The notes beneath the pieces were generated by a model. That model searched no databases, was not told the DNA's origin, and saw only the letters and a list, made by a program, of their open reading frames with translations. A program made the position numbers and the translations under genes. This document shows, one piece after another, positions 6,675 through 20,479 of a DNA stretch of 21,802 bases. Source of the stretch: a virus; the IMG/VR virus record IMGVR_UViG_3300034073_002138, positions 1-21,802 of that record, one strand, 5' to 3'. The first letter of the stretch is position 1, and the number at the start of each line of letters is the position of its first letter.

Positions 6675-6682
6675 TATAAATA
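6675..6682 (+). promoter_or_regulatory. T4-type late promoter TATAAATA for the HNH gene
   Basis: An exact match to the T4 late-promoter octamer TATAAATA on the + strand. The start site predicted from T4 spacing is about 6688, which is exactly the first base of a leader stem (GTCG, 6688-6691). The promoter drives the only + strand gene in the window. Its sequence and spacing are matched by the - strand promoter at 17344-17351. Confidence 0.65.
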
Positions 6683-6687
6683 AAGGT

Positions 6688-6743
6688 GTCGATCGCGATG
6701 TTACTACCATCCACCGACTTTAATACTACTATGGAGTATCAAC
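6688..6743 (+). promoter_or_regulatory. Structured 5' leader of HNH gene (two hairpins at start site and ribosome site)
   Basis: GTCG (6688-6691) can pair with CGAC (6715-6718). ATACT (6723-6727) can pair with AGTAT (6735-6739), which holds part of the GGAG ribosome site in the 7-base loop and 3' arm. The leader at 17284-17338 has the same two stems at the same places with different bases in the first stem. This suggests translational control like that of T4 homing endonucleases, whose ribosome sites are sequestered in early transcripts. Confidence 0.5.
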
Positions 6744-7298
6744 ATGTGTATATATCACAAGCATCATATCATACCAAAACACATGGGCGGCACTGACGAC
6801 CCATCAAATATCATCGAACTCACTGTCGAAGAGCATGCCGAAGCGCATCGAAAGTTGTTCGAACAATACGGTTGTCCTGAAGATTTCGCAGCCTGGAAAG
6901 GTTTATCTGGACAAATGAATAAAGGTGACATCATAAAATTTCTACAAAGCGAAGGTTCTAAAATTTCAAACTTAGAAAGATTAGCGACCAAAACGCATAA
7001 TTTTTTAGGCGATAATAATCCATCTAGAAAAAAAGTCAAATTAGGGACTCATCACTTTCAACAAAATGTCGGGAACAGACCTGCCGATATTACACAAAGA
7101 TCTTTAGTTGCTTCGAGATTACATCATTGGCAATCTAAAAAACACGCAGAAGTTGTAGGGAAAAGAAGCAAGAAATTGATCGAAGAACAAAAACATCCTT
7201 TTGGACAAACAGTAAAATGCCCTAATTGCGGTAAACAAGGGCAAAAAAGTTCAATGAATCGATGGCATTTTTCAAATTGTTCTAGCGTCTCATCTTAG
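6744..7298 (+). CDS. Freestanding HNH homing endonuclease
   Basis: 184 aa. The N-terminus has the HNH nuclease core: YHKHHIIPKHMGGTDDPSNI (about 4-23) followed by ELTVEEHAEAHRKL. The middle contains a NUMOD3-like DNA-binding segment (GDNNPS, then LGTHHF). The C-terminus is a CPNCGKQGQKSSMNRWHFSN zinc-finger-like module with a final Cys. It is the only + strand gene, runs against the surrounding operon and overlaps the convergent gene by 17 bases, the layout of a mobile insertion. Expression is from its own late promoter with a structured leader. The target is probably a homologous intergenic region in related phages. The same 5' leader and C-terminal finger occur in the gene at 16903-17283. 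Confidence 0.85.
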   Translation: MCIYHKHHIIPKHMGGTDDPSNIIELTVEEHAEAHRKLFEQYGCPEDFAAWKGLSGQMNKGDIIKFLQSEGSKISNLERLATKTHNFLGDNNPSRKKVKLGTHHFQQNVGNRPADITQRSLVASRLHHWQSKKHAEVVGKRSKKLIEEQKHPFGQTVKCPNCGKQGQKSSMNRWHFSNCSSVSS

Positions 7299-12098: not shown

Positions 12099-12117
12099 AA
12101 TATAGTTATCTCAATGG

Positions 12118-12561
12118 TTATTTGATATCAATCTTACGAGGTTTCTGTTCTTCAGGAATGACATTTTCTAATTGAATAGAAAGAATGCCATCAGCAAGAG
12201 TCGCATCACGAACCACTACTGTGTCAGCAAGAACAAATTGGCGAGAAAACTGACGACCAGCAATACCCTTTACAAGATAGTTGCGTTCGTCGGTGTCTGT
12301 CTTTTTGCCTTTGATTTTTAGAGAGTTTCTCTCAGAAGTGATTTCGATTTCATCTTGTTTATAACCAGCGACTGCAAGTTCAACTGTGAAATTGTATTCG
12401 TCAGTTTTAATGACGTTCACAGGTGGGAACGATGTAGTTCCTGTTGCAGTTAAGATTCTGGTTGCGTTGTCCAGCGTAGAAAACACATGTTCAAAACCAA
12501 GTGCTGCTGGAAGTAAACGATCAAGATGATCCATAGATGTAAGTGCAGTTATATTAGTCAT
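12118..12561 (-). CDS. hsp20: Hsp20 small heat-shock protein (IbpA-like)
   Basis: 147 aa. The N-terminal MDHLDRLLPAALGFEHVFSTL resembles the IbpA opening. The alpha-crystallin domain spans about 45-138, with NFTVELAVAGYKQDEIEITS and the closing ADGILSIQLENVIPEEQKPR containing the A-x-G-I-L-x-I/V-x-L signature. ATG 12561 has a strong AAAGGAG site seven bases away. Small heat-shock proteins hold unfolding proteins and are common in T4-like aquatic phages, perhaps for head or replication proteins. The 61 bases upstream contain only a CCCATATGGG palindrome and the ribosome site. Confidence 0.93.
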   Translation of the reverse strand: MTNITALTSMDHLDRLLPAALGFEHVFSTLDNATRILTATGTTSFPPVNVIKTDEYNFTVELAVAGYKQDEIEITSERNSLKIKGKKTDTDERNYLVKGIAGRQFSRQFVLADTVVVRDATLADGILSIQLENVIPEEQKPRKIDIK

Positions 12562-12622: not shown

Positions 12623-13195
12623 TTAGGCATTATTTACGCCTGTGCTTCCAAAACCGCCACTTCTTTCGGAGTGTTTTTCTGGTCTCTCAGAGGCAACAAT
12701 AAACTGAAATGGTTCATTTGCAACAATTTCAGCCTGAGCAATGCGATCACCACGACGAATTGTTGTATGCATTTTAGAAACGTTCGTCAAAAGAACAAAC
12801 ACTTCCTCTTGATAATCAACATCAACAATGCCTTCGCAGTTCGCTAGGATCAATCCTTTCTTAAGCGAAAGCCCTGAGCGAGGATGAAGGCGAATGCTAT
12901 AGTTCTGAAGTGGAAGTTCGTCGTCGTGTCGTGCAATGTCTGCAAACGTCTCAATTGTAACGTAGCGTTCGATCTTGAAGATCAATCCTGTAGGGATGAG
13001 CAAACGATCACCAGGATAGACTGACAACTCACCTAAATGATTTACATTATATTCAATTGGTGAATTGAATGAATCATATCCACTCACAACGTTTGAAGTT
13101 GGTTGGAATGATAAATCAAAGCAATTTGCTAAAGAAGTGCCATATGTTGGAAGTTCAATATCATCACGAAGTCGATATACATTCACTGAGAGCAT
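12623..13195 (-). CDS. dut: dUTPase (dUTP diphosphatase), trimeric type
   Basis: 190 aa, longer than the usual 140-155. The motifs are in order: an A-x-x-F-D-L variant of motif 1 (about 23-28), PRSGLSLKKG motif 2 (105-114), NCEGIVDVDYQEEV motif 3 (119-132, with the catalytic Asp), RRGDRIAQ motif 4 (147-154) and RSGGFGSTG motif 5 (178-186). The extra length lies mainly between motifs 1 and 2 (about 32-60). It hydrolyses dUTP to dUMP, preventing uracil incorporation and feeding thymidylate synthesis. ATG 13195 has AAAGGA upstream. Confidence 0.93.
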   Translation of the reverse strand: MLSVNVYRLRDDIELPTYGTSLANCFDLSFQPTSNVVSGYDSFNSPIEYNVNHLGELSVYPGDRLLIPTGLIFKIERYVTIETFADIARHDDELPLQNYSIRLHPRSGLSLKKGLILANCEGIVDVDYQEEVFVLLTNVSKMHTTIRRGDRIAQAEIVANEPFQFIVASERPEKHSERSGGFGSTGVNNA

Positions 13196-15607: not shown

Positions 15608-16552
15608 TCACTTAAACTCGCAATCGACCATGAGTTCGGTCAAGAACGCCATAAGATTGATTTCCTGATCGGCTGCAAAGGCGGCTTGATACTGATACTT
15701 ACCAAGAAGAATAACTGCCATTGGAATCGTGGTTGGATTTAAAACGTCATATAATTTGTCGTAAATTTCGCGCATAATTCGATGAGTATCGTTGTCGGTA
15801 TTCTGGGCGACCCACTTACGAACACTTCGGAAGTCTTTCTCTTTTAAAAAGGCGACAAGTTCAGTGATTTTAAAATCGCCAATGTTAGAAAGAATACCAA
15901 TATCGATCGTACCACCAACGCTGTATCGCTGGAGTTCATTTAAAATTCTTCGATAATCGGGGAAGAACTTTGTAATCAGTTCGGCTACGACCTTCAGATC
16001 ATACGAGATCTTTTCTTCTTTAAGAATCTGCTCAACACGCTTAAGAAAAGCAGAAGCCATCTTCGCTTTCTGACCGTTCTGTAACTTGAAATCAATTACC
16101 GCACATCGAGAGTGTAGCGGTTGAATGATTCGATTTTTAAAGTTGCAAGTGAAGATAAACGAACAGTTTTTAGAAAACTCTTCGATAACGCCACGGAATG
16201 CGGCTTGAGCATTGGCAGTTAGATAGTCTGCCTCATCGATAATAATTACCTTTCTTCCTGTTCCCGTCAGAGAAACGGAGGAAGCGAACCCTTTAATCTT
16301 TACACGTAGAGTATCAATACCTGATTCATCTGAACCGTTGATAATAATATAATCACACTCAATCTCTTCACACATCGCTCGGGCAACAGTTGTCTTACCG
16401 ACACCTGCTGAACCCGAAAGGATCATGTTTGGAATTTCTTTGCGCGCTACATACTCTTGAAAGGTTTTCTTAAAGTTTTCAGGAAGGATACAATCTTCAA
16501 TAGTTTTAGGTCGATATTTTTCGACCCACAACAGTTCCACATTTTGCAACAT
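15608..16552 (-). CDS. 44: Clamp-loader large subunit gp44 (AAA+ ATPase)
   Basis: 314 aa, close to T4 gp44 (319). WVEKYRPKTIEDCILPE is the typical opening. Walker A is GSAGVGKTT (47-55), Walker B is IIIDEADYL (Asp106-Glu-Ala-Asp), and the arginine finger is in HSRCAVIDF (Arg149). The C-terminal half is the collar domain. Four copies with one gp62 bind and open the gp45 clamp using ATP. ATG 16552 has AGGGG seven bases upstream. The gene is separated from gp45 here by a DsbA-like gene, a homing-endonuclease relative and a Tat-signal protein. Confidence 0.97.
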   Translation of the reverse strand: MLQNVELLWVEKYRPKTIEDCILPENFKKTFQEYVARKEIPNMILSGSAGVGKTTVARAMCEEIECDYIIINGSDESGIDTLRVKIKGFASSVSLTGTGRKVIIIDEADYLTANAQAAFRGVIEEFSKNCSFIFTCNFKNRIIQPLHSRCAVIDFKLQNGQKAKMASAFLKRVEQILKEEKISYDLKVVAELITKFFPDYRRILNELQRYSVGGTIDIGILSNIGDFKITELVAFLKEKDFRSVRKWVAQNTDNDTHRIMREIYDKLYDVLNPTTIPMAVILLGKYQYQAAFAADQEINLMAFLTELMVDCEFK

Positions 16553-16902: not shown

Positions 16903-17283
16903 TCAATTACTCCATTGCAAAGATTTACATTTATTAAAATGATACCGATTCATATTGTTTACGCCACCAACTTTACGGCAATGAGGGCATTCAACTGTTC
17001 GGTATTCATAATCCTTCATACGTTCAACTAAAGCAAGACTAATTCTTTTTTTCGCAGAATCTGTATGAGTCTTACCCCAAAAGAAATGTTTTTCGCCAGT
17101 TCTTTCTGCCATGGGATTATTTTTACCCATAAACAGTTCATTTCCTTTATTCCATGGTTCTATGAGTGTAGAATCTTTCGGAACACAATTCAATTGTTGG
17201 TCACTGAATGAAGGGTCTTCGTGATACTCTGTATTGAATAATTTACAGAGAGCCTTATGAGTCTTATATGTATAAATAGACAT
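16903..17283 (-). CDS. Homing-endonuclease relative without a nuclease domain (NUMOD3 plus zinc finger)
   Basis: 126 aa from ATG 17283, which has AAAGGAG upstream; the longer frame to 17340 would read through the leader. LFMGKNNPMAERTG and HFFWGKTHTDSAKKRISLAL form NUMOD3-like DNA-binding repeats. VECPHCRKVGGVNNMNRYHF with a final Cys is the same finger as in the HNH endonuclease at 6744-7298 (CPNCGKQGQKSSMNRWHFSN). The N-terminal 50 residues show neither HNH nor GIY-YIG catalytic residues, although the opening MSIYTYKTHK echoes MCIYHKHHI. It may be a decayed endonuclease, or a DNA-binding protein now acting as repressor. Confidence 0.7.
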   Translation of the reverse strand: MSIYTYKTHKALCKLFNTEYHEDPSFSDQQLNCVPKDSTLIEPWNKGNELFMGKNNPMAERTGEKHFFWGKTHTDSAKKRISLALVERMKDYEYRTVECPHCRKVGGVNNMNRYHFNKCKSLQWSN

Positions 17284-17338
17284 GCTGATACTCCTTTGCA
17301 GTATTAGGGTCCCTGGGAATTGCCGTTCCGCGAGGGAC
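17284..17338 (-). promoter_or_regulatory. Structured 5' leader of the 16903-17283 gene
   Basis: On the - strand GTCCCT (17338-17333) pairs with AGGGAC (17314-17309), with an inner GGAA/TTCC stem. ATACT and AGTAT (17304-17300 and 17292-17288) form a second hairpin around AAAGGAG. Both stems match in position those before the HNH gene at 6744; the first stem has changed bases but kept pairing. Confidence 0.55.
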
Positions 17339-17343
17339 ATCTC

Positions 17344-17351
17344 TATTTATA
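17344..17351 (-). promoter_or_regulatory. T4-type late promoter TATAAATA
   Basis: An exact TATAAATA on the - strand. A start six bases downstream (17338) coincides with the first base of the leader stem. The surrounding TGTATAAATA and the following bases resemble those at 6673-6700 before the HNH gene, so promoter and leader were probably moved together with these genes. Confidence 0.65.
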
Positions 17352-17449: not shown

Positions 17450-17686
17450 TCACTTAGCCACGTTTTCGTAAATTTCAACGAAGTCGTTCTGCTCGGCAAC
17501 TTCTTCTTCAAAACTACGCTTGTGGTAAACTTTCGCCAGTTTACGAGCCAACTTCTTGGGAATCTCGCATTCGTCTTGCATCTTCTGAAGAATCTCTTTA
17601 ATCAGATCGCGCTCAGCCTCAATACGAGTGAGAGAGTTTGAGATTTCTTGAAGGCATCCCAAAACCTTTGCTTTATCAAGTGCCAT
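17450..17686 (-). CDS. Small helical protein, possibly DsbA-like (late transcription modulator)
   Basis: 78 aa. The N-terminal 35 residues are a charged helix or coiled coil (ISNSLTRIEAERDLIKEIL). The C-terminal KLARKLAKVYHKRSFEEEVA and FVEIYENV resemble the end of T4 DsbA, the double-stranded DNA-binding protein that modulates late promoters (YHKD..E.FEAE..E..ELYD pattern, recalled from memory). ATG 17686 overlaps the gp45 stop as TAATG. As gp45 is itself an activator of T4 late transcription, co-expression makes sense. The identification is tentative; the gene itself is secure. Confidence 0.6.
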   Translation of the reverse strand: MALDKAKVLGCLQEISNSLTRIEAERDLIKEILQKMQDECEIPKKLARKLAKVYHKRSFEEEVAEQNDFVEIYENVAK

Positions 17687-18369
17687 TATTCTTCTCCGAA
17701 GGTAGAGTTAGCGGCTTCAATTGCAATCCAATAGGTCAGATTCTTCGACTCATTATGGAACTTCGAAACACCAACTGAAGAAATCTCAACAACATATTCA
17801 TCGGGAACGACCTTAAGATTTTCGATCTTAAGAGTTGCCTGGAATTTGGTATCAGTATCGCTATCAAGAACGACCTTTGCGTCGTCTACGATTTCACCTT
17901 TAACGTCCATTGCAGCAATCGCGACTTTACCATCTTCATTACTTACAACAACGTTTGGACACTTCAAAATTGAAGCAACACTGAATACCCAATTTAAAGT
18001 TTCAGCAGGAAGTGTAAACTTCACTTCATATGCTGCAATGTTAATGCTCTTGTTTGGAGGGCAGAGAATAAGATTAGTTGCGGTGAAACGCTGACGAATC
18101 GTACCCTTACCGTTCAAACTCTTGAAGACGAGAAAGTCTTGTAGGATCTCTACTTCATTGTCGTTCTTATTCATCGACAAAAGACCAAGTGACTTATTCA
18201 AGTCATAAATTCCAAACTCATGCGGAAAGGTTTCTGCAACAGTTGCTTCTGCGAGAATTGCCTTGTTGGCGGAAATTGTTCGAAGTTTATTACCTGGCTT
18301 GACGACAATCCCACTGTTGATTGACGCAAAGTTTTTCAAAATAGTCACAGTATCATTAGAAAGTTTCAT
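17686..18369 (-). CDS. 45: Sliding clamp gp45
   Basis: 227 aa, nearly the T4 length (228). MKLSNDTVTILKNFASINSG is almost the T4 start (MKLSKDTTALLKNFATINSG), and GIYDLNKSLGLLSM matches T4 AIYDLNGFLGILSL. The C-terminal YWIAIEAANSTFGEE matches the T4 end. Three copies form the ring that tethers gp43 to DNA and, in T4, also activates late transcription. ATG 18369 has GAGG nine bases upstream and lies 14 bases inside the dNMP kinase gene. Late TATAAATA promoters downstream of this gene fit a T4-like clamp-dependent late programme. Confidence 0.97.
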   Translation of the reverse strand: MKLSNDTVTILKNFASINSGIVVKPGNKLRTISANKAILAEATVAETFPHEFGIYDLNKSLGLLSMNKNDNEVEILQDFLVFKSLNGKGTIRQRFTATNLILCPPNKSINIAAYEVKFTLPAETLNWVFSVASILKCPNVVVSNEDGKVAIAAMDVKGEIVDDAKVVLDSDTDTKFQATLKIENLKVVPDEYVVEISSVGVSKFHNESKNLTYWIAIEAANSTFGEE

Positions 18370-19027
18370 AATTTACAACCTCATTTGCTTCAACACGATT
18401 ATTATATAACGAATCTATCAATTTATCAACCCTTATAGTCAATTCTTCCAAAGTACAGTTGTTATCGAGAACAACATCATAATGTGATCCAATCCAAGCC
18501 CACTCCGATTGGTGGACTTCTGGATATGAATTGCGCATCACATCTGGACTGTGAAGACCACGATTACATTCTCTAGCAAGATCATACCACTCAGGTTCAT
18601 CGCCGCGACGAACGCGAATAACTTTGCCGCCAGATTCTACAATTGCATTAATCTCGTTTGGGAAACGAACATCAGCAATGACATAATTGTGATATGGCGC
18701 CTGTTCACATCGACGCATTACAGTATGAACCCAGAGGTCGGGGTGAAATACATCACGACCTGCCTCTGTGCCCATTAGCTGGAGTGCTAATCTTGGTGAA
18801 AACTCACGACCGAATTTTTCTGACCACCATTTGTCTGGCTGCTCGCGCCATGCTCTAGATCCTGGAGTGTCACCTTCAAGCATGGAACGATTCCAACCGA
18901 AGATAGTGGCACAGGCGTCTTTGACGCTGTTTGCATAACTCTCTTTGACAAAATCATGACGATCTACCAAGAGATCTGCAACTGTGCCTTTACCTGCTCC
19001 AATAAAGCCAATTAAACCAATTATCAT
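18356..19027 (-). CDS. Deoxynucleoside monophosphate kinase
   Basis: 223 aa. MIIGLIGFIGAGKGTVADLL contains the P-loop G-x-x-G-A-G-K-G-T (7-15). VIADVRFPNEINAIVESGGK is the conserved strand and lid lead-in of the T4 gp1-like dNMP kinase family, and RLALQLMGTEAGRDVFHPDLW is another hallmark. It should phosphorylate dNMPs (including dTMP or a modified pyrimidine) to dNDPs. It starts at ATG 19027, overlapping the preceding stop, and ends 14 bases inside gp45, so precursor supply and clamp are coupled. Confidence 0.85.
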   Translation of the reverse strand: MIIGLIGFIGAGKGTVADLLVDRHDFVKESYANSVKDACATIFGWNRSMLEGDTPGSRAWREQPDKWWSEKFGREFSPRLALQLMGTEAGRDVFHPDLWVHTVMRRCEQAPYHNYVIADVRFPNEINAIVESGGKVIRVRRGDEPEWYDLARECNRGLHSPDVMRNSYPEVHQSEWAWIGSHYDVVLDNNCTLEELTIRVDKLIDSLYNNRVEANEVVNYETF

Positions 19028-19680
19028 ATGAATGTTATACCTTTACTCTCAAAAAAATCATAATCTTCAGAATACAATTCTCTTACGAATTGTGTGTCAC
19101 TCTCAGTCAAATTTCTTTTTGTCTTAGAAACATTTTTTCTAGGAATGTCAGTTATTGATAAATTTATATTGAATAAACTGAACAAGTTTTTAGTTTCTAT
19201 CTCAAAATTAGAAAAATTTAACATAGTCAAATCAACATCATTATGATTAAACCAAAATGTTTGGGGAAAATAACCACCACAACTTATGCTCAATTTTAAT
19301 CCCCTGCGTAGAGGATCTTCTATGTACATATTTGGTTTTGTTCTTATAACATCATTCAGATTTTTATTCTTCAACTCCAAAATTATATCTTTTGTTTTAT
19401 GGATAAACTCTTCTAGGGACATTTTTTGAGAAACACACTTTTGTTTTAAAGTTTCATCTACATTAGATAAAAATCGATCTATAGGATTTCTATAAAATGC
19501 ATAAAATTTAAAATTTTTGTATTCTTTGGGCAAAAAATTAATATTCAAATGATCATGAATATTATATCCTGGCACCTTTGTCCCAATACCAGTATAGGTT
19601 TTAAATAATTCATATAAAGTAGTCGAGCCAACTTTATTTACATAAAATACACCTATTTTTCTTTCTGGGCAAAGAAGCAT
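19024..19680 (-). CDS. Carbohydrate sulfotransferase-like protein, very AT-rich
   Basis: 218 aa from ATG 19680, one base after the preceding TGA; ATGs at 19698 and 19734 would start inside the upstream gene without a better ribosome site. IGVFYVNKVGSTTLYELF holds the 5'-phosphosulfate loop (K16-V-G-S-T-T), and FYAFYRNPIDRFLSNV the 3'-phosphate motif R-x-P-x-x-R-x-x-S (Arg64-Ser72). This suggests a PAPS-dependent sulfotransferase acting on a sugar. The DNA is markedly more AT-rich than its neighbours, with many AAA, AAT, ATT and TTT codons, so it was probably acquired recently. Acceptor unknown; the adjacent glycosyltransferase may make it. Confidence 0.72.
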   Translation of the reverse strand: MLLCPERKIGVFYVNKVGSTTLYELFKTYTGIGTKVPGYNIHDHLNINFLPKEYKNFKFYAFYRNPIDRFLSNVDETLKQKCVSQKMSLEEFIHKTKDIILELKNKNLNDVIRTKPNMYIEDPLRRGLKLSISCGGYFPQTFWFNHNDVDLTMLNFSNFEIETKNLFSLFNINLSITDIPRKNVSKTKRNLTESDTQFVRELYSEDYDFFESKGITFI

Positions 19681-19681
19681 C

Positions 19682-20479
19682 TCATAAAGATCCAACATAG
19701 TTAGCGACTGCACCCATATCACCTGTAAACGCATATGTTCCAACGTGATGCGTCTTCATCCATGGGCAAAGCCAAATCTTACCACCGATTTTACGCCACC
19801 ACTGGCAAAACATATAATCTTCAGACAAGTAACGATCGCTCTTACCGTGATCAATTACTGTATCGAAGTATGCATGAATGTAGCGTGTGCCGTCGAAGTT
19901 TGCTTGACCAACATGGTCTGGTTTGTAATTGAATTCAGGATAGGCGTCTTTAAATTTACCAAAGACTTCTCGCTGAACCATCATAAACCCAGTCCCAATT
20001 TCCAGAACCTCTAACGGCTCACCAACGTTAAACTGACCTGTGCCTGCAACAGCATTAAAGACATAATCGCCAGTAACCTTTTCGAGTTCTTGCGGTGTAA
20101 TTTCTGGTTTACGTTTCACTGCTTCAATCACAGCACCCCATTTGATAGACTTCTTTGGATATGGTCCACCAATGACTTCTTTATCCAAAGCGAGCATCGC
20201 GATGACATCTTTCGGATCAAAGTGAATGTCAGAGTCAATAAAGAGAAGATGAGTAAATCCAGAACGGAGGAATTCATCTACAAGATAGTTGCGCGCACGA
20301 GTAATGAGTGATTCATTAAAGATATATGAGAATCGAGTTTCAATTCCATAATTCGCACAAACTGCTTGCAAATCCAAACTGGACTTGACGTACATACCGT
20401 GAGCCATACCACCATACATAGGGGTGGCTATGAATAGTTTCTTCTTACGAAGTTGTTCTACAGAGATTTCAAGTTGCAT
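19682..20479 (-). CDS. Glycosyltransferase, GT-A fold, T4-like phage type
   Basis: 265 aa. KLFIATPMYGGMAHGMYVKS is the opening strand, LITRARNYLVDEFL a conserved family motif, and LLFIDSDIHFDP contains the DxD (Asp82-x-Asp84). SEDYMFCQWWRKIGGKIWLC followed by HHVGTYAF is the acceptor-side motif with the catalytic region. This class is, from memory, frequent in T4-like phages of cyanobacteria. ATG 20479 has GGAG nine bases upstream. It overlaps the kinase gene by 11 bases. The sulfotransferase that follows directly could act on its product. Confidence 0.82.
   Translation of the reverse strand: MQLEISVEQLRKKKLFIATPMYGGMAHGMYVKSSLDLQAVCANYGIETRFSYIFNESLITRARNYLVDEFLRSGFTHLLFIDSDIHFDPKDVIAMLALDKEVIGGPYPKKSIKWGAVIEAVKRKPEITPQELEKVTGDYVFNAVAGTGQFNVGEPLEVLEIGTGFMMVQREVFGKFKDAYPEFNYKPDHVGQANFDGTRYIHAYFDTVIDHGKSDRYLSEDYMFCQWWRKIGGKIWLCPWMKTHHVGTYAFTGDMGAVANYVGSL

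Follow-up and report, generated by a model that had tools for sequence, protein, structure and literature searches.

The window analysed here, namely the whole stretch of 21,802 nucleotides (positions 1 to 21,802), is part of the IMG/VR virus record IMGVR_UViG_3300034073_002138 and carries T4-type replication genes, with the clamp loader (15608-16552) and the sliding clamp (17686-18369) both on the - strand, the latter adjoined on the same strand by a gene for a DsbA-like protein (17450-17686; PF11126, E 1.7e-12). A dsbA homologue was reported absent from cyanomyoviruses in a 2010 review (PMC2984593). The named phages nearest to the window DNA are T4-like cyanophages and their relatives, with identity mostly of 60-80%; the window also holds a sulfotransferase-family gene (19024-19743; PF03567, E 7e-8) in this T4-like phage.

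Two ORFs of the homing-endonuclease type are each preceded by a structured leader. The copy 1 ORF (6744-7298, + strand) encodes an HNH-type homing endonuclease of 184 aa (MCIYHKHHIIPKH...) with a C-terminal zinc finger, and the copy 2 ORF (16903-17283, - strand) encodes 126 aa in which NUMOD3 and a zinc finger are recognised but no catalytic domain. ORFs resembling the latter (NUMOD3, zinc finger, no recognised nuclease) recur after the leader at loci L102, L232, L383, L305 and L080.

A preliminary description of this DNA had proposed that both leaders share a late promoter and a common set of motifs. The late-type promoter TATAAATA indeed lies at 6675-6682 (+) and 17351-17344 (-), and the ungapped GTC..TCGCG, the YYTAATACT, GGAGTATCA and the ATG (6744 and 17283) were all found as described. 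The stem announced at the predicted transcript start also holds, with P1 beginning 5 nt past TATAAATA in each copy. For copy 1, the pairing GTCG/CGAC stands and its length of 4 bp does not: the stem had been noted as only 4 bp because the fifth pair is A.C on the mRNA strand, which is G.U on the other strand. Within the window, TATAAATA is followed 40-70 nt on by GGAGTATCA at these two sites only, and a search for the promoter and Shine-Dalgarno (SD) pattern in reverse across the window gave zero sites. Further features had escaped the earlier reading, namely an inner helix, P2, interrupted by two bulges of one base each (C-R-C), a CTA/CAG base, called invariant, on which the SD hairpin rests, a TATTTA in codons 2-4 that is the promoter core reverse-complemented, and the A.C mismatches themselves. 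Both leaders fit one covariance model with 92 and 81 bits (E = 3e-20 for copy 1 and 1e-17 for copy 2, the model being trained on 60 leaders that include both window copies); its two weakest window matches (14.7 and 14.5 bits) were rejected as chance or as the reverse strand of copy 2.

In copy 1, the sense promoter predicted for the endonuclease mRNA, which on the - strand reads as a distal U-rich tail, is followed by the P1/P2 hairpin (6688-6718), terminator-like on the - strand, where it has two bulged G and then ACCUUUAUUUAUA (6687-6675). The SD GGAG (6733-6736, +) has its AG within the next hairpin (P3 or, as the predicted 5' hairpin of an antisense RNA, H3; 6720-6742, -), which is complementary to the SD. 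A degenerate antisense promoter element occupies 6749-6755 (-), reading TATATAT on the + strand, 5 nt past CAAC, and is a TATATA variant. The putative antisense RNA (6675-6743, -) would measure ~65 nt, starting near 6743 and ending in the U-tract 6687-6675. Copy 2 mirrors this arrangement, with the sense promoter at 17344-17351 (-), the P1/P2 hairpin at 17309-17338, terminator-like on the + strand and followed by ATCTCTATTTATA (17339-17351), and the antisense 5' hairpin P3/H3 at 17285-17307 (+). Here the antisense late-type promoter motif is exact (TATAAATA, 17271-17278, +), overlaps endonuclease codons 2-5 and lies 5 nt before the predicted start of the antisense RNA (17284-17351, +), at G 17284, with an end in the U-tract.

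A family of leaders in environmental phages

Further leaders were sought in IMG/VR by pattern scans, each yielding more than 100 stretches. Scan 1 combined the promoter with TAATACT..GGAGTATCA, so that the SD hairpin was fixed by the pattern; scan 2 used TATAAATA, GGAG and ATGNNTATTTAT with the hairpins unconstrained; and scan 3 relied on the SD hairpin alone, leaving promoter and ORF unconstrained. Scan 2 brought back the same P1/P2/P3 fold in nearly all matches even though its hairpins were unconstrained. A covariance model (R2), built from the hairpins only, without promoter or ORF, gave 328 matches, at least 285 of them distinct, in the loci searched on IMG/VR contigs. The preliminary description had named a lack of further matches as the outcome that would speak against a shared leader; the covariance-model search returned many. 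Counts given below enter related sequences separately unless stated.

Nearly all members precede ORFs of the homing-endonuclease type (NUMOD3, GIY-YIG, HNH), and whole phage records contain up to 15 copies (360 kb), with 13 in records of 361 kb and 333 kb and 7 in one of 244 kb; two records fetched through a chance pattern match contained zero copies by the model. The family sequences are metagenome-derived. Rfam (release 15) gave no match in the window at the gathering score and, at E up to 1 over eight loci, its sole match was a group I intron in another part of L012 (RF00028, 85 bits, 12631-12848), a contig that also bears a leader. When two leaders were compared by Blastn with 50,697 phage records, no real match came up; the model found none in nine named phages (S-PM2, S-SRM01, S-SM2, Mosig, DSL-LC03, DLP_6, S-SKS1, OspM_OC and Vibrio 2.275.O); and scanning 84,980 genomes of bacteria and archaea for the pattern gave a single chance match, within a Clostridia ORF. 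Judged from their sequences, the leaders are members of an RNA family of environmental T4-like phages that is large and undescribed.

Cassettes and mobility

A Pfam census of 117 ORFs following leaders recorded NUMOD3 in 58, GIY-YIG in 15, HNH in 15, SegE GIY-YIG in 8, HNH_5 in 7, a TnsA-like domain in 4 and the I-TevI DNA-binding domain in 4, these matches overlapping and many of the ORFs matching weakly only. The TnsA-like endonuclease N-terminal domain (PF08722) of four leader-associated ORFs is unusual beside homing-type genes.

The preliminary description had seen in the leader a portable cassette moving with endonuclease genes, and two observations bear this out. Core-identical leaders precede unrelated NUMOD3, HNH and GIY-YIG ORFs (L002/L102, L221, L278), and empty-site comparisons with BLAST-derived boundaries show that promoter, leader and ORF were inserted as one unit, whose left edge lies from a few to ~40 nt before the promoter and whose right edge coincides with the stop codon or lies close to it. 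An empty site is found in the window as well (12102-12126), with a GIY-YIG-like cassette at the allelic position in L392 and L305. The endonuclease-type domains, together with this presence/absence polymorphism, identify a phage homing-endonuclease cassette. At L285 (855-909), an intact leader remains where nearly the whole endonuclease is deleted, and at L235 (8656-8712) the leader leads into a non-endonuclease start (ATGGCTAAAAAC...).

Anatomy and covariation

On the mRNA strand, the consensus consists, in order, of the TAAATA core, 3-5 nt, P1 (6 bp), a bulged C, an R:Y pair, a second bulged C, P2 (4 bp), a loop mostly of 6 nt, P2', P1', one base, CTA, P3 (3-6 bp), CAGC, 0-4 nt, ATG, NN and TATTTA. 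The AG of GGAG sits in the 3' side of P3, which occurs in variants such as ATACT/AGTAT, CACT/AGTG, ATTCT/AGAAT and ATATCT/AGATAT. Both-sided changes were observed in 16 of the 18 base pairs, paired cells reached 95.8% (74% when shuffled), and the covariation score was 0.59-0.62 (0.616), compared with 0.188 +/- 0.011 for shuffled and at most 0.119 for slid alignments. At four loci (L061:4026-4097, L415:7041-7112, L273:319-382 and L334:7384-7447) the P3 stem contains the AUG instead of the SD and has a long loop, and TATTTA or a near variant remains close after CAGC.

Strand under selection

The helices of 276 distinct cores, read on the mRNA strand, contain 177 A.C and 27 G.U mismatches, 24 of these G.U being at the loop-closing pair of P2. 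In the other helices the asymmetry is stark, with A.C against G.U counts of 22 and 1 in P1, 62 and 0 at the R:Y pair, and 83 and 1 in P3; one A.C between CTA and CAG is present in nearly all copies. Since an A.C on one strand is a G.U on the other, the pairing appears to be selected on the antisense strand. Kinship does not explain the asymmetry, which persists among 52 clusters (32 vs 2) and among distinct P1 stems (17 vs 1), is equal in every neighbour-orientation class, and recurs in a blind set of 52 further copies obtained from whole-record scans free of pattern bias (47 vs 2). Any search bias opposes the strand result, given that the model derives from the sense strand and accepts G.U on it.

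Folding energies agree. The antisense MFE was lower than the sense MFE in 261 of 274 cores and in 45 of the 52 blind copies, and the difference between the strands was -3.9 kcal/mol, less in shuffled cores (-1.6 kcal/mol); in this comparison the minus-strand cores were short of their last, unpaired base, the pair-count alignments being complete. Copy 1 folds at -7.1 kcal/mol in sense and at -14.2 kcal/mol in antisense. The mismatch counts thus place the selected pairing, as read from the aligned sequences, on the antisense strand, where a single-stranded DNA fold with G.T pairs would give the same bias. More generally, where an element covaries, counting mismatches can tell which of its strands is the RNA.

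These results bear directly on the earlier proposal that the selected feature is an mRNA hairpin masking the ribosome site, in the logic of T4 homing endonucleases. Such a leader has precedent in T4 I-TevI, segB and Aeh1 mobE (PMC2988022, PMC3014915), the AG of GGAG falls within the hairpin in most copies (the AUG instead in a few), and most of the SD is paired in 80% of the late transcripts predicted, so that P3 can still form and some masking is possible. The mRNA strand nevertheless carries far more A.C than G.U, including one A.C inside P3 in nearly all copies, folding is weaker on the sense strand, and the second antisense hairpin is followed by a terminator-like U-tract, so the masking hairpin is not supported as the selected feature. 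The known T4 switch, with read-through RNA masked and late RNA free, is likewise inapplicable, for the predicted sense start precedes all three helices, P1, P2 and P3; in neither window copy does an inhibitory helix have its 5' strand upstream of the late start, as it does in I-TevI. The mismatch count strongly disfavours structure selected in the endonuclease mRNA, which we regard as unlikely.

Putative antisense promoter and terminator

In T4-like cyanophages, NATAAATA is a late promoter (PMC2984593). Its core TAAATA was found on the antisense strand, without specifying the motif, in 101 of 115 leaders and in 48 of the 52 blind copies; the sense core occurs in 88 of the same 115 leaders, 2-7 nt ahead of P1. 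At the equivalent place, only 45 of 1531 control ORFs have TATTTA. In the leaders, TATTTA is present at several offsets and in all reading frames, hence its conservation is not that of the protein, and in leaders with the AUG in the stem (L273, L061, L415) it still lies 5 nt after CAGC. The antisense core is usually separated by 5-6 nt from the G of GCUG, which is invariant, and this resembles the spacing on the sense side.

At the opposite end, the antisense strand past the P1/P2 hairpin is A-Y-Y-U-rich and nearly devoid of G, with a U-rich tail often broken by A. In 34 leaders the sense promoter does not adjoin P1, and the hairpin is then often followed by A-U5-7 with the promoter further out; U-tract and promoter are therefore separate features, usually fused. 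A simple terminator scan reported a partial site at copy 2 and none at copy 1, perhaps owing to the bulges and the interrupted U-tract. From these signals, the antisense element is bounded by the NATAAATA motif in codons 2-4 and by a hairpin with a U-rich tract, and we infer an antisense RNA gene of ~65 nt with a 5' hairpin, its own late promoter and an intrinsic terminator.

TATTTA as an antisense NATAAATA promoter and TATTTA as the complement of the sense promoter are the same letters, which conservation alone cannot separate; we read it as a promoter because its flanks do not covary. If it acted as a complement, TATTTA would pair with transcribed TAAATA, so that read-through RNA would close a three-way junction over the start codon, and late RNA, starting past TAAATA, would remain open, following the logic of I-TevI. 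The complementarity of 6-7 nt is kept in nearly all leaders and the pairing has a predicted probability of 0.65 in read-through RNA. No compensatory change accompanies it, however: the base before TAAATA may be C, yet the T after TATTTA is mostly retained, TATATA variants disrupt the pairing, and both the antisense-strand fold and the U-tract are left unexplained. This lock was dropped as first-choice explanation, given flanks without covariation and a strand test pointing elsewhere, and we consider it quite improbable.

An outward late promoter with an insulating terminator, the antisense unit serving neighbouring phage genes, would suit the orientation of the cassettes, in which both neighbours are antiparallel to the endonuclease at 65 of 104 sites. 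Past the U-tract, the antisense strand sometimes carries sigma70-like promoters, recognised by eye, and in T4 an endonuclease gene is more readily retained when promoters lie within it (PMC2988022); we count both for this possibility. The motif, the fold and the mismatch bias are, however, unchanged where both neighbours are co-directional with the endonuclease, for which reason an outward leader for a neighbouring gene was rejected as the main function. A terminator right after the promoter would moreover leave the neighbour undriven, and the 5' hairpin over the SD would have no explanation. We hold service to the neighbours to be just as improbable as the lock.

A hairpin of single-stranded DNA formed by the template strand, serving replication or recombination or being recognised by the endonuclease, would fit a mobile cassette and, through G.T pairs, the strand bias. 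Late-promoter motifs flanking the element on both strands and a U-tract are instead features of an RNA gene, and no second structure was noticed at the 3' end of the cassette in unsystematic insertion comparisons; a DNA hairpin seems very improbable to us. A guide RNA extending into the flanking DNA was also considered and is opposed by the terminator-like tail at the cassette edge.

Proposed control by an antisense RNA

The reading we favour, and judge reasonably likely from the sequence features and by analogy, is that a ~65-nt cis-antisense RNA limits translation of the endonuclease in the manner of RNA-OUT of IS10. The 5' untranslated region of the endonuclease gene would overlap an antisense RNA gene on the opposite strand. 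The sense TATAAATA would drive the endonuclease mRNA late in infection, and the antisense motif an RNA folding into H3, which would hold the complement of the SD, and ending at the P1/P2 terminator. Being complementary to the entire 5' untranslated region, SD included, this RNA could pair with the 5' end of the mRNA and block ribosome binding, the consequence being, by analogy, probably translational repression. The A.C mismatches would leave the mRNA end less folded and the corresponding G.U pairs would keep the antisense RNA fully folded, an arrangement expected of an antisense pair. More cassette copies would give more antisense RNA, and the multicopy mobile gene would thereby limit itself.

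A wider version is doubtful in our view: each antisense RNA would also silence related endonuclease mRNAs in trans, forming a network across the genome of phages that carry a dozen cassettes or more, and between co-infecting phages. If true, shared RNA modules and not swapped nuclease domains would decide which endonucleases are active and would limit homing.

Comparison with known systems

T4-type homing endonucleases are restrained by promoters, operators and ribosome-site hairpins in their own mRNA. If the proposed control is correct, a conserved antisense RNA would add its own level of control in front of hundreds of endonuclease genes whose catalytic domains have been exchanged, and a shared module would stand behind the modular evolution of these genes, in parallel with antisense control in transposons; multicopy control of homing would become testable in phages with 10-15 copies.

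Like T4 I-TevI, I-TevII, I-TevIII and segB and Aeh1 mobE, the family would exert RNA control of endonuclease translation near a late promoter (PMC2988022, PMC3014915). In those genes the fold forms within the gene's own mRNA, in early read-through transcripts, whereas the selected fold described here belongs to the antisense strand and lies wholly past the sense start.

CfrI of cyanophage S-PM2 (F-CphI / psbA) comes from a T4-like phage and, like the RNA proposed here, starts on the antisense strand in the 5' part of an endonuclease gene and runs outward (PMC2984593). Annotated at 136544-136741 in the S-PM2 record, it differs in its length of ~200-225 nt and in extending into psbA. The model had no match in the CfrI region (best 7.4 bits, E 0.03 in 901 bases), and TATTTA, sought near the CfrI start, was absent.

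RNA-OUT of IS10 (Tn10) is a 69-nt RNA that matches the translation initiation region by complementarity over its first 35 nt and mediates multicopy inhibition (PMC5006887). A sequence relation between it and the present family is not expected. As in the RNA-OUT/RNA-IN pair, a mobile gene would be faced at its start by an antisense RNA from the opposite strand, and, as in the RNA-OUT type, the selected fold lies on the strand opposite the mobile gene, going by A.C/G.U counts that a DNA fold would resemble. Unlike IS10, the mobile gene is a phage homing endonuclease, with putative late-type promoters on both strands and two separate hairpins with a predicted terminator, and the fold is kept by covariation across hundreds of unrelated cassettes.
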